NCBI RefSeq assembly: GCF_003581425.1
Contig: NZ_QXTG01000001.1
Location: 1,116,001 to 1,180,000 of the forward strand
Reading direction: 5' to 3'
Length of the DNA: 64,000 nucleotides
Origin: Amnibacterium setariae
Lineage (GTDB): Bacteria; Actinomycetota; Actinomycetes; Actinomycetales; Microbacteriaceae
Below, one piece after another: positions 4,586-41,297 of this stretch (the stretch's first letter is position 1; each line of letters begins with the position of its first letter). The notes under the pieces were generated by a model. The model made no database searches. It saw nothing but the letters and a program-made list of their open reading frames with translations, and was not told where the DNA came from. Both the position numbers and the translations under genes were made by a program.

Positions 4586-4624
4586 GACGAAGGGCCCCTC
4601 CGCGATACGGAGGGGCCCTTCGTC
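4586..4624. terminator. bidirectional terminator hairpin between lemA and DUF2795 gene
   Basis: A perfect 17-bp stem (4586-4602 with 4608-4624) with a five-base loop, placed between two convergent genes and eight bases from the stop of the minus-strand one. It serves both directions. Confidence 0.85.
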
Positions 4625-4632
4625 GGTCGGGG

Positions 4633-4830: not shown

Positions 4831-4861
4831 GTCGTGCTCCTTCCTGCTGTCGCGACCGGCG

Positions 4862-26081: not shown

Positions 26082-26083
26082 CC

Positions 26084-26833
26084 TCAGGCGACGGGGTGGA
26101 GGGCGATCAGCAGGGTCGCCGTCCAGTGGCAGAGGAACGCGAGCACCGTGCAGGTGTGGAAGATCTCGTGGAACCCGAACCGGCCGGGGAAGGGGTTCGG
26201 GCGCTTGAAGCCGTAGGCCAGCGCCCCGACCGTGTAGAGCAGCCCGCCGACGACGACCAGCACCATCATCGCGGCGTTCGCCTCGAACAGCGGCACGAAG
26301 TAGACGACCGCGGCCCAGCCGAGCCCGAGGTAGATCGGCACGTACAGCCAGCGGGGCGCGCCCACCCAGAACACGCGGAACGCGATGCCGATCAGGGCCC
26401 CCGCCCACACGACGGCGAGCAGGACGACGCCCTGGGCCGGCGGCAGCGCCAGCAGCGACAGCGGCGTGTAGGTGCCGGCGATGAGCAGGAAGATGTTCGC
26501 GTGGTCGACGCGCTTCAGCGCGAGCTTCACCCTCGGCGACCAGTCCACCCGGTGGTACAGCGCCGAGTTGCCGAACAGCAGGATCGACGTCAGCGCGAAC
26601 ACGACGCACGCCCAGCGCGCCTCGGCGTCCGACGCGAGCGCGACGAGGACCAGGCCCGCGATCGCGGCGATCGGGGCCGTGACCGCGTGGATCCAGCCCC
26701 GCCAGGTCGGCTTCCGCTCGAGGTGCGCCGCGTCCGTGGCCTCCTCGAGGAGGGGGAGGTGGGCCGGCTCGGCGGCGGGCTCCGCGCTCGTCGCGGCGGC
26801 GACGGCGGTCGGGCGCTGCTCCCTCGATGCCAT
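26084..26833 (-). CDS. hemolysin III family (YqfA/PAQR) membrane protein
   Basis: A 249-residue seven-helix protein of the HlyIII/PAQR family. The first 45 residues are a charged, Ala-rich cytoplasmic tail. RGWIHAVTAPIAAIAGLVLV starts helix 1. GNSALYHRVDWSPRVKLALKRVDHANIFLLIAGTYTPL carries the family His/Asp metal ligands (S-x-x-Y-H and D-H-x-x-I). FGFHEIFHTCTVLAFLCHW supplies the C-terminal HxxxH. The name hemolysin is historical; PAQR proteins are thought to be membrane hydrolases or sensors. Leaderless: TACCCT lies six bases before the ATG. Confidence 0.88.
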   Translation of the reverse strand: MASREQRPTAVAAATSAEPAAEPAHLPLLEEATDAAHLERKPTWRGWIHAVTAPIAAIAGLVLVALASDAEARWACVVFALTSILLFGNSALYHRVDWSPRVKLALKRVDHANIFLLIAGTYTPLSLLALPPAQGVVLLAVVWAGALIGIAFRVFWVGAPRWLYVPIYLGLGWAAVVYFVPLFEANAAMMVLVVVGGLLYTVGALAYGFKRPNPFPGRFGFHEIFHTCTVLAFLCHWTATLLIALHPVA

Positions 26834-26839
26834 GCGACG

Positions 26840-26887
26840 AGGGTAGTCGGCAAGCCCCGGGCCGGGACCGGCGTTCAGGCGTAGCGT
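26840..26887. promoter_or_regulatory. divergent leaderless promoters (hemolysin III / cis-prenyltransferase)
   Basis: Minus strand: TACCCT (26840-26845) six bases before the ATG at 26833. Plus strand: TAGCGT (26882-26887) six bases before the GTG at 26894. Confidence 0.6.
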
Positions 26888-26893
26888 GGGCGG

Positions 26894-27670
26894 GTGCGGG
26901 GACGAGGGGTGCGGCTGCGCCGGCCCTTCTACTCGATCTACCAGCGGCGCCTCCGCCACAACCTCGGCTCGTCGGCGCTGCCGAAGCACATCGCGATGAT
27001 CCTCGACGGCAACCGCCGCTGGGCGCGTCTCGCGGGCCTCGGCGCGGCCGAGCACGGGCACCGCGCCGGCGCGGACAAGCTCGTCGAGTTCGCGGGCTGG
27101 GTGGACGCGCTGCGCATCCCGCACGTCACCTTCTACCTGCTGTCGACCGACAACCTCCGCGGGCGGGCCGACGCGGAGCTGACCGCGCTGTTCGACATCA
27201 TCGGCACGCTCGCGCTCGACCTGTCGGCGCGCTGGCGCATCCAGCACGTGGGGACGACGGAGGGGCTGCCGGAGGCGCTGCTCGCCGCGCTCCGCACGGC
27301 CGAGGCGCAGGGCGCGGGGAAGCCGGGCCTCCACATCAACCTCGCCGTCGGCTACGGCGGCCGCACCGAGATCGCGCACGCGATGCGGAGCATCGTGGCG
27401 GAGCACGCCGCGGAGGGCGGCACGCTCGACACGCTCTCCGACCGCCTCGACCCCGAGCTGATCGCCGCGCACCTCTACACGACCGGGCAGCCGGACCCGG
27501 ACCTCGTGATCCGGACGTCGGGGGAGCAGCGGCTGTCCGACTTCATGGTCTGGCAGAGCGCGCACAGCGAGTTCTACTTCGTGGAGGCGCTCGGCCCCGA
27601 CCTCCGCGAGGTCGACTTCCTGCGCGCGCTCCGCTCCTACGCCCAGCGGCAGCGCCGCTACGGCGCCTGA
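26894..27670 (+). CDS. cis-prenyltransferase (Z-farnesyl/undecaprenyl diphosphate synthase family)
   Basis: A 258-residue UppS-family enzyme. LPKHIAMILDGNRRWARLAGL near residue 29 has the catalytic Asp and the isoprenyl phosphate-binding DGNRRWA. TFYLLSTDNLRGRAD near residue 78 and DLVIRTSGEQRLSDFMVWQSAHSEFYF near residue 200 are the other conserved blocks. The position next to hemolysin III matches Rv1086, which makes Z,E-farnesyl diphosphate for decaprenyl phosphate, so a short-chain product is plausible. A lipid carrier is needed for peptidoglycan and other glycans. Confidence 0.9.
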   Translation: MRGRGVRLRRPFYSIYQRRLRHNLGSSALPKHIAMILDGNRRWARLAGLGAAEHGHRAGADKLVEFAGWVDALRIPHVTFYLLSTDNLRGRADAELTALFDIIGTLALDLSARWRIQHVGTTEGLPEALLAALRTAEAQGAGKPGLHINLAVGYGGRTEIAHAMRSIVAEHAAEGGTLDTLSDRLDPELIAAHLYTTGQPDPDLVIRTSGEQRLSDFMVWQSAHSEFYFVEALGPDLREVDFLRALRSYAQRQRRYGA

Positions 27671-27740
27671 CGGCGCCCCGCGCGACCGGGCCCGACCGGA
27701 CACCGGGGCCTTCCGGGCGCCGCTACGCTCGGTGATCGCC

Positions 27741-28868
27741 ATGGACGCCCTCACCGACTACCTCGACGGCTTCGGGGAGGAGCCCGGGTACCTCGACTTC
27801 GCGGCGTTCGGCCCGATCTCCGCCGCGGTGCTGGCGGAGACGGCGGCGCAGGAGGACCTCGTGCGGCGCGCCCGCTACGGCGCGCGGGAGCGGCTCGAGC
27901 AGGGCGCCCTGCGGCTGCGCGACGCGGCCGCGGTCGCGACCGGCTTCCGCGCCGACCAGATCGCCTTCCAGCCGTCGACCGGGCAGGGGATCCTGCAGGC
28001 CGTGTACGGCCTCGCGGGCGGCCTGCTCGTGTCGCGCGCCGACTACCCGGCCCTGCCGCTCACCGCCCAGCGGGCGGCGGAGGCGATGCAGGTCGTCACG
28101 CCGGTGCGGCTCGAGCCCGACGACGGGCGCGTCACGCCGGGCGCCGTCCGCGACGCGCTGACCGGCACGACGATGGCGGTGCTCGTCAGCGCCGTCGACG
28201 CGCGCACGGGCGCGGTCGCGGACCTCGACGGCATCCGGCAGGTGATCGGCGACCGGCTGCTGATCGTCGACGCCGTGCAGGCGCTCGGCGCGGTCGACCT
28301 GCCGTGGTCCGCGGCCGACGTGATCGCGTGCGGCGGCCAGAAGTGGCTGCGGGCTGGCTGGGGCGCCGGCTTCCTCGCCGTCTCCGACCGCGCCGCGAAC
28401 CGGCTGACCCCGGTGCTCTCCGGCGAGGGCGGCACCGGCGAGGACGTCGTGTACGACGAGGTGCTGCCGCCCGCCGAGGGCGCGGCCGGCATGCAGGTCT
28501 CCCGCCCCGACCCCGTCGCGGCCGCGCGGCTCGCCGCCGCGCTCGAGGACCTGACGCACGCGGGCCCCGCGGCCGTGGCCGCCGCCGTCGCCGAGCGCGC
28601 CGCACGCGTCATCGCGCTCGCCGACGAGTTCGGGGTCCCGGTGGTCTCGCCGCGCGCCGACGGCGACCGCGCCGGCATCGTCGTGCTCGAGCCGCTGCCC
28701 GAGCGGCTGACGGCGCTCACGGCCGCCCTGTTCAACCACGGCGTCTCGGTGACCATCCGGGACGGGCGCGTGCGGATCTCCCCGCACGCGGGAACCACGG
28801 AGGAGACGATCGCCATGCTCCGCACCGCCCTGTCCGCCTACGCGACCGCCGTGCGGCCCGTCCGATGA
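27741..28868 (+). CDS. class V aminotransferase family protein
   Basis: A 375-residue PLP enzyme of fold type I. LDFAAFGPISAAVL near residue 14 and IAFQPSTGQGILQAVYGLAGG near residue 74 form the cofactor phosphate region. LLIVDAVQALGAVDLPW near residue 174 has the Asp that holds the PLP ring, and IACGGQKWLRAGWGAGFLAV near residue 196 the Schiff-base Lys. SVTIRDGRVRISPHAGTTEETI is the typical end. Cysteine-desulfurase-like or kynureninase-like activity is possible; the substrate is unknown. ATG at 27741 is chosen; the GTG at 27732 is only two bases from the TACGCT box at 27724-27729. Overlaps the HAD gene by four bases. Confidence 0.85.
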   Translation: MDALTDYLDGFGEEPGYLDFAAFGPISAAVLAETAAQEDLVRRARYGARERLEQGALRLRDAAAVATGFRADQIAFQPSTGQGILQAVYGLAGGLLVSRADYPALPLTAQRAAEAMQVVTPVRLEPDDGRVTPGAVRDALTGTTMAVLVSAVDARTGAVADLDGIRQVIGDRLLIVDAVQALGAVDLPWSAADVIACGGQKWLRAGWGAGFLAVSDRAANRLTPVLSGEGGTGEDVVYDEVLPPAEGAAGMQVSRPDPVAAARLAAALEDLTHAGPAAVAAAVAERAARVIALADEFGVPVVSPRADGDRAGIVVLEPLPERLTALTAALFNHGVSVTIRDGRVRISPHAGTTEETIAMLRTALSAYATAVRPVR

Positions 28869-29722
28869 CGATCACCGGGCCCGGCCGCACCCTCTGGGTG
28901 AGCGACCTCGACGACACCCTGCTCGGGCCGGACGGGCTGCTGGAGCCCGCGACGCGCGACGCCCTCGCCCGGCTCATCGCCGACGGCGTCGACTTCACCG
29001 TCGCGACGGCCCGCTCGCCGCACACCGCGTTCTCCGCCCTCGACGGCGTGCCGCTCGCGCTGCCGCTCGTCGCCTACGGCGGCGCGACCGCGGTCGACCC
29101 GACCGAGCGCGGCCCGCTGTGGTGGGAGCACTTCGACGCGCGGTCGCTCGCGCCCCTCGTCGGCGCGGCGCTCGCGGCGGGCGTGACCCCGCTCGTGTTC
29201 TGGCTCGACGGCGACCGGGACAAGGTCAGCTGGGTGCGCGGCGCCGAGACCAGCGGCGTGGACGCCTTCCTCGAGACCCGGCAGGGCGACCCGCGGCTCG
29301 CGCCGGTCGACGGCTGGGACGAGGTCGACCACGACCGCGGCTTCTTCGTCAGCATCCGCGGCGAGTACCCGGTCGTGCGGCGGCTGTCCCGGATGATCCG
29401 CGCGATCTCGTGGGGCACGGGCTGCTCGCTGGCGCTCGCGGGCAGCCGCGAGAGCGGCGTCGGCGTCCTCGACGTCACGCCGTCGACCGCGACGAAGGGC
29501 ACCGGCGTCCGCCGCGTCGCGGAGGAGCACGGCTTCACCCGGATCGTCGCGTTCGGCGACGGCGCCAACGACCTGCCGCTGTTCGCGGAGGCCGACGAGT
29601 CGTGGGCCGTCGCGGGCGCGGACGACGAGGTGAAGGCCGCGGCGACGGGCGTCCTCGACGACCGCCCCGACGCGGTCGTCGCCTTCCTCGCCGAGCGGGC
29701 GGCGGCGCGCGCCGAGGTCTGA
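28865..29722 (+). CDS. HAD superfamily hydrolase (Cof/mannosyl-3-phosphoglycerate phosphatase type)
   Basis: A 285-residue HAD phosphatase. LWVSDLDDTLLGPDGLLEPATRDALARLIADG at residue 10 is motif I (DLDDT), FTVATARS motif II, and RIVAFGDGANDLPLFAEADESWAVAGADDEVKAAAT near residue 230 motif IV. The cap lies between (type C2, with a WYDH-like acidic and aromatic stretch). It dephosphorylates sugar phosphates in the family; the substrate is unknown. Its ATG overlaps the aminotransferase stop, so the two are coupled. Confidence 0.87.
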   Translation: MTITGPGRTLWVSDLDDTLLGPDGLLEPATRDALARLIADGVDFTVATARSPHTAFSALDGVPLALPLVAYGGATAVDPTERGPLWWEHFDARSLAPLVGAALAAGVTPLVFWLDGDRDKVSWVRGAETSGVDAFLETRQGDPRLAPVDGWDEVDHDRGFFVSIRGEYPVVRRLSRMIRAISWGTGCSLALAGSRESGVGVLDVTPSTATKGTGVRRVAEEHGFTRIVAFGDGANDLPLFAEADESWAVAGADDEVKAAATGVLDDRPDAVVAFLAERAAARAEV

Positions 29723-29789
29723 CGCCCCGCGTCCATCCCTCGTCCTCGCGTCGTCCTCGCGTCGTCCACCGGCCGTCGGAGGCGTGCCG

Positions 29790-29900
29790 TACGGTGTGCC
29801 GCATCGGGTACCTCACCCGGTCCGGGACGGCATCTGCGGCTCGCGACGACAGGAGGCGCGCATGGTCCCGGTGGGAAGGCGATCCGGGGAGGTCGGCTGA
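29790..29900 (+). promoter_or_regulatory. phoH leader with -10 box and a 12-codon upstream ORF
   Basis: TACGGT at 29790-29795 is a -10 candidate. At 29862-29900 a 12-codon frame (MVPVGRRSGEVG) starts with ATG, five bases after AGGAGG, and ends 24 bases before the phoH start, which has its own Shine-Dalgarno (AAAGAGG). It could be a leader peptide or an unrelated small peptide. Confidence 0.35.
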
Positions 29901-29924
29901 TCTCTCCCGGGGGAAAGAGGCCAC

Positions 29925-31286
29925 GTGCCTGACGCGCTGTCCGCCCAGTCCCTGCCGGCGAGCCCGGCCGAGCCCGCCACGGCGGCGAGCACCGGGACGC
30001 GCACCTTCGTGCTCGACACCTCGGTGCTGCTGTCCGATCCGAAGGCCCCGTTCCGCTTCGCGGAGCACGCGGTCGTGCTCCCGGTCGTGGTGATCTCCGA
30101 GCTCGAGGGCAAGCGGAACGACCCGGAGATCGGCTACTTCGCGCGGCAGGCGCTGCGGAACCTCGACGAGCTCCGCGTCCAGCACGAGCGGCTCGACTTC
30201 CCGGTGCCGGTCGGCGAGGGCGGCTCCCTCCGCGTCGAGCTGAACCACTCGAACATGAGCGTGCTGCCGAACGGCCTGCAGCTCGGCGGCAACGACGCGC
30301 GCATCCTCGCCGTCGCGCAGAACCTCGCGAACGACGGCCTCGAGGTCACGGTGGTGTCGAAGGACCTGCCGATGCGCGTGAAGGCGGCCTCCATCGGCCT
30401 CACCGCCGAGGAGTACACGGCCGAGCAGGCGGTCGACACCGGCTACAGCGGCGTCGCGGAGCTCGCGGTCGGCGCCGACGCGCTCGACGCGCTGTACGAC
30501 GAGCACCGGGCCTCCGCGCCCGAGGCCGAGGGCCTGCCGATCAACACCGGCGTCGTGCTCTCCTCCGAGCGCGGCAGCGCGCTCGCCCGCGTGGTCGGCA
30601 GGCGCGGCGAGCTGAAGCTCGTGCGAGGCGACCGCGACGTGTTCGGCCTGCACGGCCGCAGCGCCGAGCAGCGGCTCGCGATCGACCTGCTCACCGACCC
30701 CGAGGTCGGCATCGTCTCGCTCGGCGGGCGCGCGGGCACGGGCAAGAGCGCGCTCGCGCTCTGCGCCGCGCTCGAGGCCGTGCTCGAGCGGCAGCAGCAC
30801 CGCCGGATCATGGTGTTCCGGCCGCTGTACGCGGTCGGCGGGCAGGAGCTCGGCTACCTGCCGGGCGACGCCGCCGAGAAGATGAACCCCTGGGGGCAGG
30901 CGGTCTTCGACACCCTGGGCGCGGTCGTGTCGCAGAACGTGATCGACGAGGTCGTCGAGCGGGGCGTGCTCGAGGTGCTGCCGCTGACCCACATCCGCGG
31001 CCGCAGCCTGCACGACGCGTTCGTGATCGTCGACGAGGCGCAGTCGCTCGAGCGCAACGTGCTGCTCACCGTGCTGTCGCGGATCGGGCAGAACTCGCGG
31101 GTCGTGCTCACCCACGACGTCGCCCAGCGCGACAACCTCCGGGTCGGTCGGCACGACGGCGTCGCGAGCGTGATCGAGACGCTGAAGGGCCACCCGCTGT
31201 TCGGCCACGTCACGCTCACCCGCTCGGAGCGCAGCGCGATCGCGGCCCTCGTCACGGAGATGCTGGAGTCGAACGAGCTCTCCTGA
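29925..31286 (+). CDS. phoH: PIN domain-PhoH fusion ATPase (PhoH2-like)
   Basis: A 453-residue protein. Residues about 25-170 form a PIN nuclease domain ([22 protein letters not shown]; an acidic [12 protein letters not shown] later), and residues about 245-450 the PhoH ATPase with Walker [14 protein letters not shown] and Walker [17 protein letters not shown]. Mycobacterial PhoH2 combines unwinding and RNase activity and is paired with the small antitoxin PhoAT. No PhoAT-like coding frame is apparent upstream, only a 12-codon ORF. GTG start. A long palindrome follows the stop. Confidence 0.93.
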
Positions 31287-31313
31287 CCCCGTCGCGGATC
31301 CGCACTTCCTCCG

Positions 31314-31390
31314 CGGATCCGCAGTTCTCGCCCGACACGCCGCAGCCGGCACCCTCCGGCCCGGCGTGTCGCGGCAGAACTGCGGATCCG
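31314..31390 (+). repeat. long intergenic palindrome after phoH
   Basis: Inverted 29-base arms (31314-31342 and 31362-31390) that match at 26 of 29 positions, separated by 19 bases, starting 28 bases after the phoH stop. The start of the left arm (GCGGATCCGCA) is repeated at 31294-31304. It could terminate phoH transcription or be a dispersed repeat. Confidence 0.75.
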
Positions 31391-31583
31391 TGAAGGCCTG
31401 TGGAGGACGGGCGGCTCGCTCGCCTTCGCCCTGGCCCGTCGTCTCGTCGTCTCGGCACCCTGGACACGCTCGTGCGGCTGCCGCAGGAGCTCGCGCCCAC
31501 GACGCCGCTCGCCGAGATCTCCCGGACGCTCGAGCGCTCCGGGGGACCTGCCCCACTGCGTCGGCGACGCGGTCGTCTGGGCG

Positions 31584-31904
31584 GTGCTGCGGGCGCTCAT
31601 GAGCATCGGCCACCTCGCCGTGCTGCTGCCGGCGCATCCGCGCCTCCGCTCCGTCGTCGAGCCCACAGGACCGCTCGCCGCAGCGGCGCTCGGCGCCCTC
31701 CTGCTCGGCGGAGCGGGCTTCTTCCACTGGTGGAGCGCGTTCGCGACGGCCATGTCGGTGTCGGACGAGCTGCCGCCCGGCGCCGGAGGAACCACCGGCC
31801 TCGGCATGCTGATCGTGCTGGGCGGGCTGCTCGCGGGCGTCATCGGTGCCGTGCTCGGTGTCGTCGTCCTGGTCCGCGCGGCGAGGCGGAGCGCACCGGC
31901 CTGA
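31584..31904 (+). CDS. small membrane protein, possibly the 3' part of a frameshifted gene
   Basis: A 106-residue frame from GTG 31584 (or ATG 31599) with two transmembrane helices (about residues 30-52 and 71-98) and a basic tail. No family recognised. The coding signal (GC at third codon positions) continues upstream of the GTG: the frame reads DLPHCVGDAVVWAVLRA back to about 31545, and the frame one base off reads DTLVRLPQELAPTTPLAEISRTLERSG upstream. The shift falls in a run of five G at 31541-31545. The full gene may start near 31450 or 31400 and carry a one-base insertion, real or a sequencing error. Confidence 0.5.
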   Translation: MLRALMSIGHLAVLLPAHPRLRSVVEPTGPLAAAALGALLLGGAGFFHWWSAFATAMSVSDELPPGAGGTTGLGMLIVLGGLLAGVIGAVLGVVVLVRAARRSAPA

Positions 31905-31950
31905 TCGGCCGGGCTGTGGAGAACGCGCGCCGCCGCTGCGACGCGCGCTC

Positions 31951-31956
31951 TAGCCT
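31951..31956 (+). promoter_or_regulatory. -10 box of leaderless prepilin peptidase gene
   Basis: TAGCCT, six bases before the GTG at 31963. Confidence 0.5.
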
Positions 31957-31962
31957 CCCGGC

Positions 31963-32487
31963 GTGCTCGCCGTCGTCCGCCGCCTCCCGCGGGAGGAGCT
32001 CCTGCCCGTCGCGGGCCTGATCGTCGTCGCCGTCGCGGCGATCGGCGCGCGGCCGGTGCTGCTCGGGTTCGTCTGGCTCGCGCTCGTCACGCCCCGGCTC
32101 GTCGCGGTGGACCTCGCCGAGCACCGCCTGCCGGACCGGTTCGTGCTGCCCGGCTACCCGGTCGTGCTCGCAGCGGTGCTGCTGCAGGCGTGGTCGGACG
32201 GCACCGCAGCCGCCGGCCCGGTCCTCGCCGGGCTCGCCTGCGGGCTCGTGCTGCTGCTGCTCCACCTCACGGGCGGGCTCGGGCTCGGCGACGTGAAGCT
32301 CGCGCCGCTGCTCGGCGCGCTCGCGGGCGCCGCCGTTCCCGGCGCCGCCGTCCTCTGGCTCGTGCTCGCGTTCCTCGTCGGCGGGATCGCGGCGGTCGTC
32401 GTCCTCGTCCGCCGCGGCCCGGGCGCCCGGATGCCGTTCGGTCCGCCGATGCTCCTCGCCGCCTGGACGGTGCTGCTGCTCGCCTGA
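31963..32487 (+). CDS. A24 family prepilin peptidase
   Basis: A 174-residue membrane protein of the peptidase A24 family. VDLAEHRLPDRFVLPGYPVV near residue 47 carries the first catalytic Asp in its D-x6-P context, and GGLGLGDVKLAPLLGAL near residue 104 the second (GxGxGDxKL). Six or so transmembrane helices. It lacks the N-terminal methyltransferase domain of TapA/PilD, as is common for actinobacterial type IV pilus (Flp/Tad) enzymes. It cleaves prepilin leaders, but no pilin genes are in this window. Confidence 0.87.
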   Translation: MLAVVRRLPREELLPVAGLIVVAVAAIGARPVLLGFVWLALVTPRLVAVDLAEHRLPDRFVLPGYPVVLAAVLLQAWSDGTAAAGPVLAGLACGLVLLLLHLTGGLGLGDVKLAPLLGALAGAAVPGAAVLWLVLAFLVGGIAAVVVLVRRGPGARMPFGPPMLLAAWTVLLLA

Positions 32488-32490
32488 CCC

Positions 32491-32560
32491 GCTCGTGCAC
32501 CCCGCCGCGGCCGGTGCGACGCCGCGCGCCGGTGCACGAGCCGCGCGGCGTCGCACGAGC
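32491..32560. repeat. interleaved inverted repeats (A-B-A'-B')
   Basis: Arm A 32491-32501 pairs with A' 32531-32541 (11 bp perfect). Arm B 32514-32528 pairs with B' 32542-32556 (15 bp perfect). The order A-B-A'-B' gives two mutually exclusive hairpins or an H-type pseudoknot. The first eight bases of A also pair with 32553-32560. It lies between the prepilin peptidase stop and the next promoter. Confidence 0.7.
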
Positions 32561-32596
32561 GCCGCGTCGCGCTCGCCGACCGGCGCGGCGGTCCTC

Positions 32597-32602
32597 TACG
32601 GT
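32597..32602 (+). promoter_or_regulatory. -10 box of leaderless membrane protein gene
   Basis: TACGGT, seven bases before the ATG at 32610. Confidence 0.5.
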
Positions 32603-32609
32603 GCAGCGC

Positions 32610-33371
32610 ATGGATCGCGACGAGGCGACGACCCCCACCGCGGTGCTCCGACCGGTCGCGGTCGTCGGCGCCCTGCTCCTCCTGCTCGGCTCGGTGCTCG
32701 CGCTCGCGAGCGACGCGGTCGGCGAACGCGGGGCGGTCGGCTCCGCGCTCGTCGACGCCAAGGGCGTGTTCTGGGCCAACCAGGAGCTCAACGTCTGGTC
32801 CTGGTACTCCACGGTGCTGCTCGCCGCGCTGGCCGCGGCCTTCGCGGTCACCGCGCTCCTCCGCCGCGCCGCCCGCCGTCCGCACGTCGACGTCGTCGTC
32901 TTCGCGTGCGTCGCCGCCTGGCTGTCGATCGACGAGGCCGCAGCCCTCCACGAGCGGCTCGGCACCCTCGCTCGCGCGGTCGGCGTGCGCGGGACGTTCG
33001 AGTGGGTCGCGCTCGGGCTGCCCGTCGCGATCGTCGGGGTCGTCGCGCTCGTCCTCGTCTCCCGCCGCACCGAACCGCTGCTCCGGCGGCGGCTCGGGAT
33101 CGCGGCCCTCGTGTTCCTCGGCGGCTCGCTCGGGCTCGAGGCCGTCGCGGGAACCCTCGTCGAGACCTGGGGGCTCAGCAAGACGGCACCGCTCTTCATC
33201 CTCGAGGTGACGCTCGAGGAGGCGGCCGAGGTCGCCGGGGTGCTCCTCGCGCTCCGCGCCGTGCTCGGAGGGCTCCGCGTCGCCGTCGGGCCGAGCGGGA
33301 TCGCGGTCCACGACGAGCCCGAGCACGGCGGCCGCCGAGTGCGGGCGGAGGGCGCCCCCGTCGTGCGTTGA
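32610..33371 (+). CDS. multi-pass membrane protein with acid/His motifs, unknown
   Basis: A 253-residue protein with about five to six transmembrane segments (near residues 14-33, 65-86, 95-112, 131-152, 165-185 and 208-228). Two charged motifs face the membrane edge: AWLSIDEAAALHERL near residue 103 and ILEVTLEEAAEVAGVLLALRA near residue 198, patterns with clustered Asp/Glu/His that could bind metal. Large extracytoplasmic loop VFWANQELNVWSWYS after the first helix. No family recognised. Start set by a leaderless promoter. It ends 29 bases from the convergent gatD-like stop. Confidence 0.7.
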   Translation: MDRDEATTPTAVLRPVAVVGALLLLLGSVLALASDAVGERGAVGSALVDAKGVFWANQELNVWSWYSTVLLAALAAAFAVTALLRRAARRPHVDVVVFACVAAWLSIDEAAALHERLGTLARAVGVRGTFEWVALGLPVAIVGVVALVLVSRRTEPLLRRRLGIAALVFLGGSLGLEAVAGTLVETWGLSKTAPLFILEVTLEEAAEVAGVLLALRAVLGGLRVAVGPSGIAVHDEPEHGGRRVRAEGAPVVR

Positions 33372-33400
33372 CCGGCGGCGCGGACCGCGCGCCCGCCCGG

Positions 33401-34183
33401 TCAGACCGGGCGGCGGAGCCCGGTGCCCGCGCTCGCGGGCACGTAGGAGCGGGAGCCGCGGCCGGCCGCGCGGGCGTGCAGCACCGCGTTCGCCCGCTCC
33501 GCGATGCGGTCCACCGCGCGGTGCCGCTCCCCGGGCCGGTAGTCGAGCCCGCGGCGAGCGGCCGCGACGCCGAGCAGCTCGTCCGCGACCCGAGGGTTGC
33601 GGGGGAGCAGCGGGCCGTGGAGGTTCGTGCCGACGACCCGGCCGGACGCGGCGCCCTCGTCGGGCCGCCCCGGCGCGTTGCCCGCGCCGAGCAGCACCCG
33701 GCCCCACGGCTCCGTCCCCTCGTCGAGCTCCGCCTCCTGACCGAGGTTGTGGTAGCCGTGCACCCGGCCGATCGCGGTCTCCACGACGGCGAACCCGCTC
33801 ACGCGCGCGGCGGGTCGGCTGCTGCCGCGCAGCAGGCCGAGCCCGGCGACCGGCACCCGGTCGCCCGGCAGCAGGAGGCGGTCGAGCAGCAGGTGGAACC
33901 CGCCGGCGACCCCGAGCACCGGCACGCCGTCCGCGACCCACTCGTGCAGCACCGCCCGCTGCCCGGCGAGGCGGGCGAGCGCGGCGCGCTGCCCGGCGAC
34001 CGACGGGCCGCCGACGTGCACGAGGTCCGGGCGGGCGGCCCACCAGCGCCGGTCGTCGCCGGTGACCACCGCCGCGTCGATCCGGGCCCAGTCGAGCCGG
34101 CGCCGGAGCGCCAGCACGTTCCCGCGGTCGCCGTTGACGTCCATGCCGCCGGGCAGCAGGTCGAGCAGGACGACACGGCTCAC
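33401..34183 (-). CDS. GatD-like type 1 glutamine amidotransferase lacking the catalytic Cys
   Basis: A 260-residue CobB/CobQ-type amidotransferase, the partner of MurT. LLPGGMDVNGDRGNVLALRRRL and VVGTNLHGPLLPRNPRVADELL are the GatD signatures, the latter with the conserved His (residue 189). The nucleophile elbow reads VPVLGVAGGFHLLLD: the Cys of the usual GxCxGxQ motif is Ala93 and the Gln is His97. The whole protein has no Cys. It is therefore unlikely to hydrolyse glutamine. It may have another or structural role, for example as MurT partner in a ligase. GTG start overlaps the MurT stop (GTGA). Confidence 0.85.
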   Translation of the reverse strand: MSRVVLLDLLPGGMDVNGDRGNVLALRRRLDWARIDAAVVTGDDRRWWAARPDLVHVGGPSVAGQRAALARLAGQRAVLHEWVADGVPVLGVAGGFHLLLDRLLLPGDRVPVAGLGLLRGSSRPAARVSGFAVVETAIGRVHGYHNLGQEAELDEGTEPWGRVLLGAGNAPGRPDEGAASGRVVGTNLHGPLLPRNPRVADELLGVAAARRGLDYRPGERHRAVDRIAERANAVLHARAAGRGSRSYVPASAGTGLRRPV

Positions 34184-35499
34184 GACGCGCTCCGGTCGAG
34201 CCGCAGGCGGCGCCGGATGACGCGCATGCTCTCCGGCGTCATCACGATGCGGCGCCGCACGCCGTCCGGCAGCGGCGCGGTCAGGTGCGCGACCACCGCG
34301 CGGTCCAGGTCCTCGTCGACGCGGCCCACCGCGACCTCGTCGTAGGCGAGCCGGAGCGCGGTGTCCCACGCCTGCCACCCGGACACGAGGTCCACGTGCT
34401 CGAGCGGGCGCCAGTCCGCGAGCCATAGCTGCGAGGCGTCGAAGATGTCGCGGCCGACGGCGACCATCGTGGAGACGCCGCGCGGGTCGAGCAGGTCGAG
34501 GTTCGCCTGCATCGTCGCGGGGCTCTTCGTCAGCACGAGCTCCACCTCGGCGCCGAGCGCGGTCACGGTCTCCTCCCGCCCGAACACGGCGGCGGAGGCG
34601 TCGATCGCGGTGCGCGCCAGCCGCTCGTCGTAGCGCTCGCCGAGGACGGCCGCCGCGGCCTCGAGCGCGGCGGCCGCGTCCACGGCGACGTGGGCGCCGC
34701 GACCGGGCAGGCGGAGGACGTCGCGCCCGCGCTCGGTCCGCACCTCGGCCCGGTCGCCGTCCACGCGCTCGACGACCGCGTCGGCCGCCGTCTCGACCGC
34801 GGGGCCGGAGAAGTCGGGCGCGGAGCCGGGCGGATGCGGCAGCGCCGCGCGGACCGCGGCCGAGAGCCCGAAGCGGCGGACGACCGCCCCGGCCAACTCC
34901 CGGTCCCGGCCGATCGCGGCGACGAGCGGGTCGTCCGCGTTCACCACGAGCGCGCCCGTCGCCGCCTCGGCGGCCCGGCGGAGGTAGGCGGCGACGAGCT
35001 CCGGCTCCTGCCAGCGGTGCAGCTGGTCGATCATCACGTTCAGCAGCACGACCACTCGTGCGGCGGCGTCCGCGGCGACCGCGCCCGCGTAGCCCTCGTC
35101 GACCTCCACGACCGCGACGTCGGCGGTGGTCCGCGCAGCACCGTCGATCTGCGGCAGCAGCTCCGCGGTGATGCCGTGCGGGATGTTCGCGGTCCGCCGG
35201 TTGGCGAGCACGGTCAGGCCGTGCCGCTCGAGGATCGCCCGCACGAGCGCCGCGGTCGTCGACTTCCCGCTGGAGCCCGACACGACCACCACGCCGAGCG
35301 GCGGCTGCCGGAGCACGTGCCCCACCAGGTCGGGGGCGAGCCGCAGGGCGACGCGGCCGGGGATCGCGGTGCCGCCGCCGGGGCGGACGAGGTGCACGAG
35401 CAGTGCCGTCGCCCGGCCCGCGAGCACCGCCGCCCGGCGGCGCACGGGGCCGCTCCGGCGCCGAGCGCGGCGGAGCAGCGGGGCTCGCCGGTGCGCCAT
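34180..35499 (-). CDS. MurT-like Mur ligase (no zinc ribbon)
   Basis: A 439-residue Mur ligase-like protein: basic N-terminus, central ATPase with VVVVSGSSGKSTTAALVRAIL near residue 72 (usual form GTNGKTTT), NIPHGITAELLPQIDG, VVEVDEGYAGAV and VVVLLNVMIDQLHRWQEPELVAAYL (metal/ATP-binding region), and a C-terminal MurT domain (FGREETVTALGAEVELVLTKSPATMQANLDLL). MurT with GatD amidates D-Glu of lipid II. The Cys4 zinc ribbon of characterised MurT is absent: no Cys in the protein. Leaderless-type box TAGAAC lies seven bases upstream of the ATG. First gene of the two-gene operon. Confidence 0.85.
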   Translation of the reverse strand: MAHRRAPLLRRARRRSGPVRRRAAVLAGRATALLVHLVRPGGGTAIPGRVALRLAPDLVGHVLRQPPLGVVVVSGSSGKSTTAALVRAILERHGLTVLANRRTANIPHGITAELLPQIDGAARTTADVAVVEVDEGYAGAVAADAAARVVVLLNVMIDQLHRWQEPELVAAYLRRAAEAATGALVVNADDPLVAAIGRDRELAGAVVRRFGLSAAVRAALPHPPGSAPDFSGPAVETAADAVVERVDGDRAEVRTERGRDVLRLPGRGAHVAVDAAAALEAAAAVLGERYDERLARTAIDASAAVFGREETVTALGAEVELVLTKSPATMQANLDLLDPRGVSTMVAVGRDIFDASQLWLADWRPLEHVDLVSGWQAWDTALRLAYDEVAVGRVDEDLDRAVVAHLTAPLPDGVRRRIVMTPESMRVIRRRLRLDRSAS

Positions 35500-35506
35500 G
35501 CCCGCC

Positions 35507-35512
35507 GTTCTA
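35507..35512 (-). promoter_or_regulatory. -10 box of leaderless murT-like gene
   Basis: TAGAAC on the minus strand, seven bases before the ATG at 35499. It deviates from TANNNT at the last base. Confidence 0.4.
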
Positions 35513-35653
35513 CCCGAGGAGGAGCGCCGCGTCGCCGTTCCGCACGGCGTGTAGCGGAGGTCGGCCCGCCCTGACGGCCGACCCGCCGCGCGTGCCCCGG
35601 CCGGTCAGGTCGTGTTCACGCCGGTCGGATCGAGGGCACGAGCGGGATGCAGG

Positions 35654-37054
35654 TCAGCCGGGGCGCGTCATCGACAGGACGTCGAGCGCCGTGTCGAGCT
35701 GCTCCTCCGTCACCTCGCCGCGCTCGACGAAGCCGAGGTCGATCACGGCCTGCCGCACGGTGATGCCCTGCGCCACCGAGTGCTTCGCGACCTTCGCGGC
35801 CGCCTCGTAGCCGATCGCCCGGTTCAGCTTCGTCACGATCGAGGGGGAGGACTCGGCGAGGGCGCGGGCGCGCTCCTCGTTCACGGCCAGGCCCGCGAGG
35901 ACCTTGTCCGCGAGCAGGTGCGAGACCGCGGCGAGGAGGCGGACGGACTCGAGCAGCGCGGTGCCCATCACCGGGATCGCGACGTTGAGCTCGAAGACGC
36001 CGGAGGCGCCCGCCCAGGTGATCGTCGCGTCGTTCCCGATCACCCGCGCGGCGACCATGAGGGTCGCCTCCGGGATGACCGGGTTCACCTTGCCCGGCAT
36101 GATCGAGGAGCCCGGCTGCAGGTCCGGGATGTGCAGCTCGCCGAGCCCGGCGTTCGGCCCGGAGCCCATCCAGCGGAGGTCGTTCGAGATCTTCGTCAGG
36201 CTGACGGCGAGGACCTTCAGCGCGCCGGACGCCTCGACGAGTCCGTCGCGGGCGCCCTGCGCCTCGAAGTGGTCCGCGGCCTCGACGATCGGCAGGCCGG
36301 TGGTCTCGGCGAGGATCTCGATGACGGCGGGGGAGAAGCCCGCGGGCGTGTTGATGCCCGTGCCGGTCGCGGTGCCGCCGAGCGGCACCTCCGCGAGGCG
36401 CGGCACCATGGCGGCGATGCGGTCGAGCGCGAGCCGGATCTGGCGCGCGTAGCCGCCGAACTCCTGGCCGAAGGTCACGGGCGTCGCGTCCATCAGGTGC
36501 GTGCGGCCCGCCTTCACGAGCTGCGCCCACGCCGTCGCCTTCTCCTCGAGCGCCGTCGCGAGGTGCTCGAGCGCCGGCACGAGCACGGTCTGCACGGCCT
36601 CCGTCGCCGCGAGGTGCACCGAGGTCGGGAACACGTCGTTCGACGACTGGGAGGCGTTCACCTCGTCGTTCGGGTGCACGGGGCGGCCGAGGCGCTGCGT
36701 CGCGAGCGACCCGAGCACCTCGTTCATGTTCATGTTCGAGGAGGTGCCGCTGCCCGTCTGGTAGACGTCGACCGGGAACTGGTCGAGGTGCTCGCCCGCG
36801 ACGATCTCGTCGGCGGCGCCGACGATCGCGTCGACGACGTCCGTCGGCAGCACGCCGAGGCGGCCGTTGACGATCGCCGCCGCCCGCTTGATGCGCGCGA
36901 GCGCGACGACCTGCGCGTCCTCGAGCCGTGACCCCGAGATCGGGAAGTTCTCGACGGCGCGCTGCGTCTGCGCCGCCCAGAGCGCGTCGCGGGGGACGCG
37001 CACCTCGCCCATCGTGTCGTGCTCGATGCGGTAGGCAGCGTCGTCGGACGTCAT
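35654..37054 (-). CDS. fumC: class II fumarate hydratase
   Basis: A 466-residue class II fumarase. [33 protein letters not shown] at the N-terminus, [14 protein letters not shown] near residue 104, [18 protein letters not shown] near 135 and [15 protein letters not shown] near 320 (the family signature GSSxMPxKxNP) place it with FumC. It hydrates fumarate to malate in the TCA cycle and needs no iron-sulfur cluster. AAGGAG precedes the ATG. Last gene of the operon from xseA, 37 bases after the carbonic anhydrase gene. Confidence 0.96.
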
Positions 37055-37091
37055 CAGGCTCCTTCGCCGTGGGGAGGGTCGACCGGTCGGG

Positions 37092-37703
37092 TCAGGACGT
37101 GGCGCCCACCGCGAAGCGCCGCTCGACGCGGCCCTCCGCCAGGCGGTAGTTCGCACCGACCACGTCCACGGTACCGTCCGCCACCGTGGCGGACAGCAGG
37201 TCGGAGGCGGCGAGCAGCGACGCCACCGTGGACTCGAGGTGCGCCTCGCCGACGGCCGCCGCGTCGCCGTCGTGCGCCGCGCGCACGGCCGGCCGGATCG
37301 CCTGGATGTGGGCCGCGATCAGGGGCGGCAGCGGCGGCGCGTCGGGCGCGGAGGCGTCGATCGCCGCCTGCACGGCCCCGCAGCGGTCGTGGGCGAGCAC
37401 GACGACGAGCGGCACGCCGAGCACGCCGACCGCGTACTCGACCGAGGCGATCGCGGAGGCGCTCGCCACCTGGCCGGCGTTCCGGATCACGAACAGGTCG
37501 CCGAGCCCCTGGTCGAAGAGCACCTCCGCCGCGACGCGGGAGTCGCTGCACCCGAGGATCGTCGCGACCGGTCGCTGGCCCTCGGCGAGCTCGGCGCGCC
37601 GGTGCGCGTCCTGCCGCGGGTGCTCCGGCCGGTCGGCGACGAAGCGCTCGTTGCCGTCGGCGAGGCGCTGCCAGGCCGCGGTCGCCGCTCGTTCGGTGCT
37701 CAC
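37092..37703 (-). CDS. beta-carbonic anhydrase
   Basis: A 203-residue beta-class carbonic anhydrase. [31 protein letters not shown] near residue 48 has zinc ligand Cys and the Asp-Arg dyad, and [18 protein letters not shown] near residue 98 has the His and second Cys. NGxxRF-like [10 protein letters not shown] is at residue 17. It interconverts CO2 and bicarbonate. The GTG start overlaps the DUF4245 stop (GTGA). The link to fumC next door may be bicarbonate supply for anaplerosis. Confidence 0.94.
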
Positions 37704-38359
37704 GGCAGGGTCCCTCCGCCTTCCAGTCCACGGGCCTCGGCGCTCGCGGCGGCCTTCGCGGCGAGGTCGCGGATCTCGCGCTCCGGTGCCGTGCCGTACA
37801 CGGCGACGAGCACGCCGCCGATCCGCGTCGCGAGGCCGTAGGCGACGTTACCGGCGTCGCGGCCGAGCTCCCTGCGGTCGTACACCCGCCACGGCAGGCC
37901 GCCGATCGTGGTCGTGCCGGTGGGGCGGGCGCGCTGCATCGTCGTCGCCAGCAGGTCGTCGGTGCCGGGCAGCCCCTCGGTGAGCCCGGCGTACTCGGCG
38001 CCGTCGATCACCCAGCCGACGTACCAGGAGGAGCCGTCGCCGCTGCCCCGCAGCTCCGCCGCGTTGGCCTTCCAGCCGGCGGGCACCGCGGGGGCGATCA
38101 GCGGCCGGCCGGCGGTGTCGCCGTACTGCTGCGCGACCTGCTGCACGTCGACGTCCCGCTGCACGGGCTGGTCGCCGCGCGGCACGATCAGCACGATCGC
38201 GGCGACGAGGAGCACGCACGCGACGAGCGAGCCGACGAGGTTGCGCCAGTTCTGCCGCGACCGCCGCAGGACGCGGTCGCGCGCCTTGCGCTCGGCGGTC
38301 TCTTCGGGGGTCTCGGGCCGGCCCAGCTCCGCGACGACCCGGCCGGAGGGGTCGCTCAC
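37700..38359 (-). CDS. DUF4245 membrane-anchored protein
   Basis: A 219-residue protein: about 40 polar N-terminal residues, one membrane helix (about residues 43-61, VGSLVACVLLVAAIVLIVP) and an outside domain. SWYVGWVIDGAEYAGLTEG, TTTIGGLPWRVYDRREL and GGVLVAVYGTAPEREI fit DUF4245. Found next to exonuclease VII and carbonic anhydrase in this family of genomes. Function unknown. GTG start overlaps the xseB stop. Confidence 0.8.
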   Translation of the reverse strand: MSDPSGRVVAELGRPETPEETAERKARDRVLRRSRQNWRNLVGSLVACVLLVAAIVLIVPRGDQPVQRDVDVQQVAQQYGDTAGRPLIAPAVPAGWKANAAELRGSGDGSSWYVGWVIDGAEYAGLTEGLPGTDDLLATTMQRARPTGTTTIGGLPWRVYDRRELGRDAGNVAYGLATRIGGVLVAVYGTAPEREIRDLAAKAAASAEARGLEGGGTLP

Positions 38360-38568
38360 GACTCGGCGCGCGCGGCGTCGAGCCGCGCCCGCGCGCCCGT
38401 CAACCACGTCTCGCAGCGGGTCGCGAGCGCCTCGCCGCGCTCCCAGAGCGCCAGCGACTCCTCGAGGGTGGCGCCGCCCCGCTCGAGCTGATCGACGACC
38501 GCGATCAGCGCGTCCCGGGCGGCCTCGTACGACAGCGAGTCGATGTCGGTGGGTGCCGGGTCGGTCAT
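38356..38568 (-). CDS. xseB: exodeoxyribonuclease VII small subunit
   Basis: A 70-residue helical protein. LSYEAARDALIAVVDQLERGGATLEESLALWERGEALATRCETWL is the whole XseB signature. It pairs with XseA to degrade single-stranded DNA from either end. Ten bases after xseA; its stop overlaps the DUF4245 start. Confidence 0.95.
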   Translation of the reverse strand: MTDPAPTDIDSLSYEAARDALIAVVDQLERGGATLEESLALWERGEALATRCETWLTGARARLDAARAES

Positions 38569-38578
38569 GCCCGGCAGT

Positions 38579-39835
38579 CTACGAGCGGGCTCCGACCGGC
38601 TCGGCCCGGTCGGCGGGCTCCCGGTCGACGGCGCCCTCGCTCGTCGCGGCGACCGCCCCGTCGACCACGCGCACGGTCAGCGGCGTGCCGGTCGGGGCGT
38701 CGGCGACGTGCCGCAGCGCCGCGCCGTCGCCGCCGAGCACGATCGCGTAGCCGCGCTCGAGCGTGCGGAGGGGGGAGAGCGCGCGCAGGTGCCCGCGGGC
38801 CTCCGCGAGCCGCCGCTCGGCCGCGTCGACGGCGCGGTCGACCAGCTCGGCGGACCGCGCGGCCCAGCGGGTCAGCTCGTCGGCGCGGCTGTCGACGATC
38901 CAGCCGCCGTCCGCGAGCACGCGACGCTGCCGCAGCGACGCGACCCGGTCCGCCTCCATCCGCACCGTCTGCGTCAGGCGGTTGCGGATGCGCGCGCGGG
39001 CCTGGCTGACGCCGTTCAGCTCGTCGGTCACGTCCGGCACGACGCGCTTCGCCGCGTCGGTCGGGGTGGAGGCGCGCAGGTCGGCGACGTCGTCGAGCAG
39101 CGGCCGGTCGTTGTCGTGGCCGATCGCGCTGACGACCGGCGTCCGGGCCGCGGCGACCGCGCGGAGCAGCCGCTCGTCGCTGAACCCGAGCAGGTTCTGG
39201 AAGTCGCCGCCGCCGCGGGCGATGACGATGACGTCGACCTCGGGGTCCGCGTCGAGGGCCGCGAGCGCGGCGAGCACCTCCGGCACCGTGCGGTCGCCCT
39301 GCACGGCGGCGTGCACGACGCGGAAGTCGACGCTCGGCCAGCGCAGCTGCGCGTTGCGGATCACGTCCTTCTCCGCGTCGGAGTCCTTGCCCGTGATGAG
39401 GCCGATCCGGTGCGGGAGGAACGGGAGCCGGCGCTTGCGCGCGGGGTCGAACAGGCCCTCCGCCGCGAGCGTGCGCCGCAGCAGCTCGAGCCGCTCGAGC
39501 AGGTCGCCGAGCCCGACGTGCTTCATCTGGAAGACCTGCATCGAGATCGAGCCGGCCTTCAGCCAGTAGTCCGGCTTGACGAGCGCGATCACGCGGTCGC
39601 CCTGCTTGAGGTCCGCCGGCAGCCGCGACTTCACGCTCGACCAGATCTGGAAGGAGACGGTCACGTCCCGCTCGAGGTCCTTGAGCTTGCCGTAGACGTT
39701 CGCGCCGCGGACGCCCCACTGGGTGATCTCGCCCTCGACCCAGACCTGCCCGAGCCGGTCGATCCAGCCCTTCAGCTTGTCGCCGAGCACGCCCACCGAC
39801 CAGGGCGTCTCCGCCGTCCCGACGCCGTCGCTCAT
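38579..39835 (-). CDS. xseA: exodeoxyribonuclease VII large subunit
   Basis: A 418-residue XseA. The N-terminal OB fold (SVGVLGDKLKGWIDRLGQVWVEGEITQW..GANVYGKLKD) is followed by the nuclease domain: PHRIGLITGKDSDAEKDVIRNAQLRWP near residue 135, VDVIVIARGGGDFQNLLGFSDERLLRAV and PVVSAIGHDNDRPLLDDVADLRASTPTDAA. The C-terminal coiled coil is rich in Arg and Ala, and LSPLRTLERGYAIV is the typical end. First gene of the five-gene operon down to fumC. ATG at 39835 with AGGAG seven bases upstream. Only 23 bases separate it from the divergent ispH start. Confidence 0.95.
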   Translation of the reverse strand: MSDGVGTAETPWSVGVLGDKLKGWIDRLGQVWVEGEITQWGVRGANVYGKLKDLERDVTVSFQIWSSVKSRLPADLKQGDRVIALVKPDYWLKAGSISMQVFQMKHVGLGDLLERLELLRRTLAAEGLFDPARKRRLPFLPHRIGLITGKDSDAEKDVIRNAQLRWPSVDFRVVHAAVQGDRTVPEVLAALAALDADPEVDVIVIARGGGDFQNLLGFSDERLLRAVAAARTPVVSAIGHDNDRPLLDDVADLRASTPTDAAKRVVPDVTDELNGVSQARARIRNRLTQTVRMEADRVASLRQRRVLADGGWIVDSRADELTRWAARSAELVDRAVDAAERRLAEARGHLRALSPLRTLERGYAIVLGGDGAALRHVADAPTGTPLTVRVVDGAVAATSEGAVDREPADRAEPVGARS

Positions 39836-39846
39836 GCGCACGCTCC

Positions 39847-39852
39847 TAGAAT
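39847..39852 (+). promoter_or_regulatory. -10 box of leaderless ispH
   Basis: TAGAAT, six bases before the GTG at 39859. It overlaps the Shine-Dalgarno region of the divergent xseA, so both start signals share a 23-base gap. Confidence 0.6.
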
Positions 39853-39858
39853 CCTCGC

Positions 39859-40911
39859 GTGGTCCCCCCGGTCGAGCTCGGTCTTCCCGCGAGTCCGTCG
39901 ACCGCGTCCACGGTAGTCGACGGGTCCGTCACCGGGTCCGGTCGTGTGCTGCTCGCCGCCCCGCGCGGCTACTGCGCCGGCGTCGACCGCGCCGTGGTCG
40001 CCGTCGAGAAGGCGCTCGAGCGCTACGGCTCGCCCGTCTACGTGCGCAAGCAGATCGTGCACAACGTGCACGTCGTGAAGCGCCTCGAGGAGCAGGGCGC
40101 GGTGTTCGTCGACGAGGTCGACGAGGTGCCGACCGGCTCCCACGTCGTCTTCAGCGCCCACGGCGTCGCCCCGGCCGTCGTCCGCGCGGCCGCCGACCGC
40201 GGCCTGCAGGCGATCGACGCGACCTGCCCGCTGGTCACCAAGGTCCACCGCGAGGCCGTGCGCTTCGCGCGCGACGACCGGCACATCCTCCTCATCGGCC
40301 ACCACGGCCACGAGGAGGTCGAGGGCACGATGGGGGAGGCGCCCGAGCGCACCACGCTCGTGGGCTCGCCGGAGGAGGCCGACACCGTCGAGGTCGCCGA
40401 CCCGGACAACCTGGTCTGGCTCTCGCAGACGACCCTCTCCGTCGACGAGACGATGGAGACGGTCCGCCGCCTGCGCACGCGCTTCCCGAACCTCGCCGAC
40501 CCGCCCTCGGACGACATCTGCTACGCCACGCAGAACCGCCAGGTCGCGGTGAAGAAGATCGCCCGCGACGCGGACGTCGTGCTCGTGGTCGGCAGCGCCA
40601 ACTCCTCGAACTCGGTGCGCCTCGTCGAGGTCGCGCTCGACGGCGGCGCCCGCGCCTCCTACCGCATCGACGACGCGAGCGAGCTCGACCCCGCCTGGCT
40701 CGAGGGCGCCTCGACCGTCGGCGTGACGAGCGGCGCGAGCGTGCCGGAGCGCCTCGTCCGCGACCTGCTCGCGGTGCTCGCCGAGCACGGCTACGGCACG
40801 GTGGAGGAGGTGCGCACCGCGGAGGAGGACCTCGTCTTCTCCCTGCCCCGCGAGCTGCGCCGCGACGCCTCAGGCAACCGCGACCCCCGGGCGCTCGGCG
40901 GCCGCAGCTGA
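39859..40911 (+). CDS. ispH: 4-hydroxy-3-methylbut-2-enyl diphosphate reductase
   Basis: A 350-residue Isp[25 protein letters not shown] near residue 31 has the first cluster Cys, [16 protein letters not shown] near residue 122 the second, and [11 protein letters not shown] near residue 217 the third, the three ligands of the 4Fe-4S cluster. [19 protein letters not shown] and [12 protein letters not shown] are other conserved blocks. It makes IPP and DMAPP in the last step of the MEP pathway and supplies the cis-prenyltransferase elsewhere in this window. Leaderless GTG start. Confidence 0.97.
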
Positions 40912-41291: not shown

Positions 41292-41297
41292 CCCCGC

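Follow-up and report, generated by a model that had tools for sequence, protein, structure and literature searches.

The closest described systems are the MurT/GatD lipid II isoglutaminyl synthases of Staphylococcus aureus and Streptococcus pneumoniae, in which GatD supplies ammonia from glutamine and MurT amidates D-Glu. MurT is thought to activate the alpha-carboxyl of this residue as an acyl phosphate, and we know of no other ligase that activates it. The same carboxyl must be activated to make B-type peptidoglycan, whose cross-link originates at D-Glu and which has served as a taxonomic marker for decades. None of the matches listed from the open-access full-text literature named an enzyme for the bond that defines these walls, which is weak evidence of absence. 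In the published passages on the S. aureus enzyme, Cys94 and His189 of GatD form a proposed triad with MurT Asp349 as its third member (PMC6113224), and GatD Arg128 binds glutamine (PMC5871853). The C94A mutant has no glutaminase activity (PMC5871853), C94S abolishes activity in vitro (PMC6113224), and C94G cannot use glutamine. Combined with MurT, the C94G protein accepts ammonia for the amidation of lipid II at pH 8.5 and shows no activity with it at pH 7.5, and without GatD, MurT was inactive whichever donor was supplied (PMC3266927). The substrates of the S. aureus complex are lipid I and lipid II rather than soluble precursors (PMC6085368). According to the S. pneumoniae structure paper, murTgatD is universal in Actinobacteria, and the passages on these genes make no mention of a loss of the cysteine (PMC6085368). 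Such a loss in Microbacteriaceae is not described either in the titles and abstracts among the matches listed from the open-access literature.

We analyzed a window of 64,000 nucleotides from Amnibacterium setariae (Microbacteriaceae; contig NZ_QXTG01000001.1), which carries a MurT/GatD-like pair on its minus strand. The features used below are the following, with positions counted in the window except for the last one.

33401..34183, minus strand: GatD-like subunit, 260 amino acids, no cysteine, GTG start (open reading frame, domain and structure matches)
33617..33619, minus strand: His189, equivalent of the catalytic histidine, kept (alignment)
33803..33805, minus strand: Arg127, equivalent of the glutamine-binding Arg128 of S. 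aureus (alignment)
33890..33919, minus strand: former nucleophile elbow VLGVAGGFHL, residues 89-98 (alignment with S. aureus GatD)
33905-33907, minus strand: Ala93, in place of Cys94 of S. aureus GatD (alignment)
34180..34183, minus strand: GTGA, overlap of 4 bases between the murT-like stop and the gatD-like start (open reading frame coordinates)
34180..35499, minus strand: MurT-like Mur-ligase subunit, 439 amino acids, no cysteine, zinc ribbon absent (open reading frame, domain matches)
34438..34440, minus strand: Asp354, equivalent of the triad residue Asp349 of S. aureus MurT (alignment)
34495..34509, minus strand: QANLD, the QxNxD motif of the type-1 clade, MurT-like residues 331-335 (alignment)
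35254..35277, minus strand: ATP-binding loop GSSGKSTT (GTNGKTTT in S. aureus), MurT-like residues 75-82 (alignment)
Contig C2, about 721861-723881: another MurT/GatD pair of the same genome, directly after the housekeeping sigma-factor gene

The GatD-like protein is a homologue of GatD over the GATase domain that lacks the catalytic cysteine. It matches PF07685 (GATase_3) with 46.7 bits for a cut-off of 27, and S. aureus GatD (6gs2) with an E-value of 3e-23, residues 10-225 aligning on residues 10-225. In this alignment the elbow VLGVAGGFHL faces GLTICGGYQF, with Ala93 opposite Cys94 and His97 opposite Gln98, and Arg127 and His189 fall on Arg128 and His189. This confirms the original prediction that the elbow carries alanine for cysteine and that His189 is kept; as also predicted, the protein is devoid of cysteine (we count none, and none in its MurT-like partner). 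The predicted histidine in place of glutamine is real in the window protein but is not a general feature: among the proteins that lost the cysteine, Q, E, D, H, K, and further residues are found there. The protein misses the cut-off of the NCBIfam GatD equivalog (85.1 bits against 450), a weak test, since the MurT of a Leifsonia pair with an intact GatD cysteine likewise misses the MurT equivalog cut-off (162 against 800).

The partner matches MurT structures and is closer to the MurT model (83.8 bits) than to that of MurF (28.9 bits). It has the Mur ligase middle domain (PF08245, 35.3 bits), its MurT_C domain falls below the cut-off (PF08353, 15.6 against 25 bits), and it keeps the equivalents of the ATP-loop lysine, Glu108, and Asp349. 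The overlap of the two genes makes translational coupling likely. Among the open reading frames at 26000-42000, the nearest recognised wall-related gene is an undecaprenyl-diphosphate-synthase-like one (26894-27670, by our own reading), about 6.5 kb away. AlphaFold models of the GatD-like and MurT-like proteins, made from alignments of two rows (window and L039), had mean pLDDT of 51.6 and 46.2, too poor for use.

The loss of the cysteine belongs to most of the Microbacteriaceae and not to the window locus alone. We sampled 99 genomes (59 of them Microbacteriaceae), then 120 Microbacteriaceae, and added one named locus of Glaciihabitans tibetensis (L039). A pair was kept only if both genes were found, which gave 121 distinct pairs once L001, L003-L008, L022, L052, L145, 13 duplicate loci, and L115 (no GatD hit) were left out. 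Weak relatives may be missed, because only the best candidates of each genome were scored (at most 14 in the family searches and 5 in the class search). Classes were defined by the residue at GatD position 94, and the MurT partner separates them independently. There are 33 canonical pairs with the cysteine (17 from Microbacteriaceae and 16 from the rest of the order), 79 of type 1, 7 of type 3 (His), and 2 odd ones (Gly and Asn). Type-1 pairs have Gly (58), Ala (15), Ser (3), Asn (2), or Thr (1) at this position. Since Cys94 is replaced in every type-1 (79/79), type-3 (7/7), and odd pair (2/2), and the classes are separated independently by MurT, the loss is due neither to chance nor to sequencing error. 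In type-1 GatD proteins the equivalent of Arg128 is kept in 76 of 79 cases and His189 in 54.

Pairs without the cysteine occur in 83 of the 120 Microbacteriaceae genomes (74 with type 1, 7 with type 3, and 2 odd), and most type-1 genomes have one MurT hit each. Sorted by content, 72 genomes have type 1 only, 2 have type 1 and a Cys pair, 7 type 3, 12 a Cys pair only (the Cys type thus being present in 14), 2 an odd pair, and 3 are unclassified (G043 and G142, with loci at contig ends, and G125). The remaining 22 have no MurT hit at an E-value of 1e-20; 16 of these encode a CofE-like protein and 6 neither, G162 being placed among the latter by subtraction. We also considered, and rejected, the idea that every Microbacteriaceae genome has a dead pair, given the 12 of 120 with the Cys type only, the 16 with a CofE-like protein and no MurT hit, and the 6 with none.

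Another residue acting as nucleophile at position 94 is excluded for most members, with Gly or Ala in 73 of 79 type-1 rows. This leaves the three Ser, one Thr, and two Asn; C94S abolished the activity of the S. aureus enzyme. One of the loci with Ser (L116) is a sigma-linked pair in a very reduced Microbacteriaceae genome (G021, a single contig of 927303 bases).

In a class-wide search of 296 genomes, scores of 545-639 bits were found in Microbacteriaceae only; other members of the order followed with 375-399, and no genome farther out exceeded 189. We read 21 loci from 80 genomes with a hit outside the family: 20 have the cysteine and L243 has no readable elbow. A plasmid search with the window MurT gave one weak match, the Leifsonia pair with an intact cysteine (L264, Leifsonia shinshuensis plasmid, 2809-5758), a canonical MurT/GatD followed by an M15 peptidase flagged as VanY-like in the record. 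A type-3 MurT gave 15 plasmid records, among which we read one pair, in Vescimonas fastidiosa (L263, 2995-5048): a type-3-like MurT and a GatD-like "hypothetical protein" with Gly at position 94. Judged by its sequence, a dead GatD is present in Bacillota too.

We built a quick maximum-likelihood tree of MurT, without GatD, from 93 of 142 rows after removal of close copies and short rows; it comes with warnings for four long rows and for odd letter make-up in 13, including that of the window (L009). A single branch (SH-aLRT 99) sets all 52 type-1 rows apart, the type-3 rows fall into a separate clade with the two odd rows nearby, and two changes between Cys and non-Cys suffice. Hence, the loss in type 1 is old and stable. 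The window pair shares its group with L039 and L010, the latter from genome G023, where such a pair is the sigma-linked one. In 11 comparisons of GatD genes without the cysteine from relatives (the window gene being left out and L002 used twice), dN/dS ranged from 0.09 to 0.36, which shows that the gene is maintained by purifying selection in these relatives. The value for GatD exceeded that of its MurT in 10 of these 11 comparisons, against 1 of the 3 canonical ones in which both values were finite.

The type-1 MurT partner has changed as well. Lys59, Glu108, and Asp349 (S. aureus numbering) are kept in 79 of 79 proteins, and Arg133 in none. A QxNxD motif has appeared, with Asn323 in all 79, Gln321 in 72, and Asp325 in 70; neither Gln nor Asn belongs to the most frequent residues at these sites in the 33 canonical rows. 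Ahead of Asp349, the loop has lost three residues. The Cys4 zinc ribbon pattern is found in none of the 79, and only 10 of the 33 canonical rows pass the same pattern. The full retention of Asp349 in the absence of Cys94 suggests that this residue may have another task.

The genome of A. setariae has the other pair without the cysteine on contig C2 (L001/L002, also L213), with Gly at position 94. This sigma-linked pair might act as the main ligase, and the window pair might be a paralogue for a further or alternative residue. The subclade of the window pair is shared with Glaciihabitans, which also has two pairs without the cysteine, one of them sigma-linked. In Glaciihabitans tibetensis (L039, 4742-6892), the window-type pair is followed by a gene that we read as a class A penicillin-binding protein, which hints at a putative dedicated transpeptidase.

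The end of the housekeeping sigma gene lies beside 79 of the 88 loci without the cysteine (72 of 79 type-1, 7 of 7 type-3, and 0 of 2 odd) and, within the fetched stretches, beside none of the 33 canonical ones, although its absence is weak evidence because the fetched flanks are limited. Of the 19 stretches read from genomes without a MurT hit, two of which stop at contig ends, 13 have a CofE-like gene after the sigma gene; no such gene is there in the 12 stretches of Cys-only genomes or in the 6 of other families. The CofE-like protein matches PF01996 (45.2 bits) and scores 28.4 against a cut-off of 180.65 bits for the CofE equivalog. It occurs in 17 of the 120 genomes, and the 81 type-1 or type-3 genomes are not among these (Fisher p 2.7e-10, ignoring kinship). 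In 13 of these 17 genomes the gene is in the sigma slot; it is outside it in G138, and its place relative to the sigma gene is not settled in G049, G058, and G143. Species of the same genus differ at the slot, with type 1 or CofE in g7 and g9, and type 1 or type 3 in g37, g42, and g48.

More precisely, at most one gene lies between the sigma gene and the CofE-like gene that follows it in L177, L178, L180-L185, L188, L190-L192, and L203. These loci are often beside an ATP-grasp gene (PF14397), and L203 also has a diaminobutyrate transaminase. In G058 (L127, C1:612390-614386), a CofE-like gene lies immediately upstream of the odd MurT/GatD pair, and the two ligases may therefore work in one pathway.

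The slots that we read at length also carry the PF14397 ATP-grasp gene and a pair of alanine-racemase-like genes; a split alanine racemase is seen in L216, L217, L227, L229, and L231. The two genes differ in two motifs: by pattern, gene one has the SYGxT[YF] tyrosine motif in 0 of 7 cases and the PLP-lysine motif in 4 of 7, and its partner has them in 5 of 5 and 0 of 5, respectively. The two products are possibly a heterodimer making a D-diamino acid. A diaminobutyrate transaminase is in the slot of G025 and G101 (TIGR02407, 601.8 bits for a cut-off of 552.2 in G025); six of the 40 genomes searched have one that exceeds the cut-off, and in four of these it is not part of the slot. Some of the walls in question have diaminobutyrate as their bridge residue.

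FemAB-type enzymes use aminoacyl-tRNA and extend from an amine. They would therefore not make the B-type bond, for which an ATP-dependent carboxylate-amine ligase is expected. If canonical pairs go with A-type walls, FemAB genes should be found alongside them. Among 40 chosen genomes, FemAB was found in 9 of 12 with the Cys type only, 0 of 12 with type 1, 0 of 4 with type 3, 1 of 8 with CofE, and 2 of 4 from the order. Among the 120 Microbacteriaceae it was found in 22: 9 of 12 Cys-only, 4 of 6 without any candidate, 7 of 81 with type 1 or type 3, 2 of 17 with CofE, and 0 of 3 unclassified. The difference between Cys-only and type-1 or type-3 genomes has a Fisher p of 2e-6, ignoring kinship. 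The seven type-1 or type-3 genomes with FemAB (best E-values from 7.5e-11 to 3.2e-5) and the two with CofE count against a role of the pair in the bridge, as do the Cys-only G006 (same genus as the window), G103, and G109, which had no FemAB hit in the search of 120 genomes. The Cys-only members do not fit this contrast if the Microbacteriaceae are B-type without exception.

The Microbacteriaceae are described as having B-type peptidoglycan (PMC10978784), and D-diaminobutyrate forms the link between the D-Glu and D-Ala of Clavibacter michiganensis (PMC9603630). B-type walls are reported for two carriers only: Glaciihabitans, with B10 and diaminobutyrate according to data at the level of the genus (PMC7033078), and G016, taken as Rhodoluna lacicola, whose only pair is sigma-linked with Ala at position 94. 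The peptidoglycan of R. lacicola is B10 and yields D-Ala-D-Dab and Gly-D-Glu (PMC4156110, which cites the peptidoglycan scheme of 1972).

We prefer to read the pair as a ligase that attaches a bridge amino acid to the D-Glu alpha-carboxyl, with GatD as a non-hydrolysing partner, and we give this reading a probability of about 0.58. The pair would be a two-subunit Mur-type ligase. Judging from the motifs it keeps, its MurT-like subunit would bind ATP and convert the alpha-carboxyl of D-Glu, within the stem peptide on its lipid carrier, into an acyl phosphate. With Cys94 lost, glutamine is very probably no longer hydrolysed, a claim of the original prediction to which the published C94A, C94S, and C94G mutants lend strong support. 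The amine of an amino acid would then attack in place of ammonia, giving a D-Glu-alpha-amino acid bond from which the B-type cross-link would start; this exchange is the smallest step from the chemistry of MurT. The residue added would probably be a diamino acid (D-diaminobutyrate, ornithine, or lysine), or a glycine before one. The GatD-like subunit would remain an obligatory structural partner: the C94G data indicate that a GatD with Gly, the commonest state here, can be required by a MurT that takes an outside amine. It might also hold the incoming amino acid in the old glutamine pocket, since Arg128 is kept. The link with B-type walls that had been predicted from the window draws support from how the pairs are spread over the family, from the slot that they share with CofE, from the opposite distribution of FemAB, and from the two B-type carriers with diaminobutyrate; the initial interpretation as a whole stands in part.

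The same observations can be read in other ways. The pair could still amidate D-Glu with free ammonia, the nitrogen source also of mammalian CPS1, whose glutaminase domain likewise lost its cysteine. The original prediction had left the choice between a bridge amino acid and ammonia open, and we favour the former. The C94G mutant can amidate lipid II at pH 8.5 when given ammonia, and the ATP-site residues, Asp349, and the GatD-like subunit are all kept; this mutant is however inactive at pH 7.5, and ammonia leaves unexplained the QxNxD motif, the exchange with CofE at one locus, and the walls reported for two carriers. We thus consider it unlikely, and less likely than bridge ligation. By the same chemistry as bridge ligation, the pair could also decorate the alpha-carboxyl of D-Glu with glycine or another residue outside the cross-link, a decoration known from Micrococcus luteus. 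One of the two pairs of A. setariae could do this, but the family is described as B-type and 74 of its 120 genomes have type-1 pairs, mostly with one MurT hit, and we regard such a role for the pair as more doubtful still.

A function farther from the cross-link seems improbable. The window copy is an additional one, unlinked to the sigma gene, with the nearest recognised wall-related reading frame about 6.5 kb away, so one may think of a ligation outside peptidoglycan or of a regulatory pseudoenzyme; yet its relatives keep the ATP-site residues under purifying selection, a PBP-like gene follows the Glaciihabitans pair, and type-1 or type-3 pairs are rarely together with FemAB. The least credible alternative is a GatD-like gene in decay, with MurT as the one subunit that counts. 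The higher dN/dS of GatD relative to MurT goes in this direction, but the values for GatD still are those of a maintained gene in the relatives, and among the 89 loci taken for MurT (L040-L128) a GatD hit is missing only at L115.

Beyond ligation of a bridge residue by the pair, we tentatively propose, as a possibility that falls short of even odds, that the type of peptidoglycan is set by an exchangeable cassette at one slot, which lies between the sigma gene and a gene that we read as gyrB/parE-like. The cassette would exist in three forms: MurT and a dead GatD of type 1, MurT and a dead GatD of type 3 (His) whose origin is separate, and the unrelated CofE-like ligase. The split alanine racemase pair, and sometimes an enzyme making diaminobutyrate, would accompany them. 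In the MurT forms, the glutaminase would be a non-hydrolysing holder of the amino acid, handing the bridge residue to the ligase. The dead GatD with its changed MurT, and the CofE-like ligase exchanged with them, are candidate enzymes for the B-type bond. If this is true, an amidating enzyme investigated as a drug target would have become a bridge-building one after the loss of its catalytic residue.

Compared with the MurT/GatD synthases of S. aureus (6gs2/7q8e) and S. pneumoniae (6fqb), the pairs described here have the same overlapping genes, a homologous GatD, the equivalents of Arg128 and His189, the ATP site of MurT, Glu108, and Asp349. They differ by the absence of the nucleophilic cysteine, of the Cys4 zinc ribbon, and of Arg133, by a loop shorter by three residues, and by the new QxNxD motif. 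MurE and MurF share the Mur ligase middle domain and, if our proposal is right, the attack of an amino acid amine on a carboxyl phosphate, but the window ligase matches them less well (28.9 bits for MurF against 83.8 for MurT) and would need its GatD partner, and soluble precursors are not the substrates of the S. aureus MurT/GatD, which uses lipid I and II (PMC6085368). The FemAB/MurM transferases also build the interpeptide bridge, with a polarity opposite to that of a bond on the D-Glu carboxyl, and FemAB is present in only 7 of the 81 type-1 or type-3 genomes. Finally, a member of the CofE (F420-0:glutamate ligase) family is found in the same slot after the sigma gene in 13 of its 17 genomes, and never together with type-1 or type-3 pairs; unlike MurT, this CofE-like ligase belongs to an unrelated family (PF01996), far under the cut-off of the CofE equivalog.
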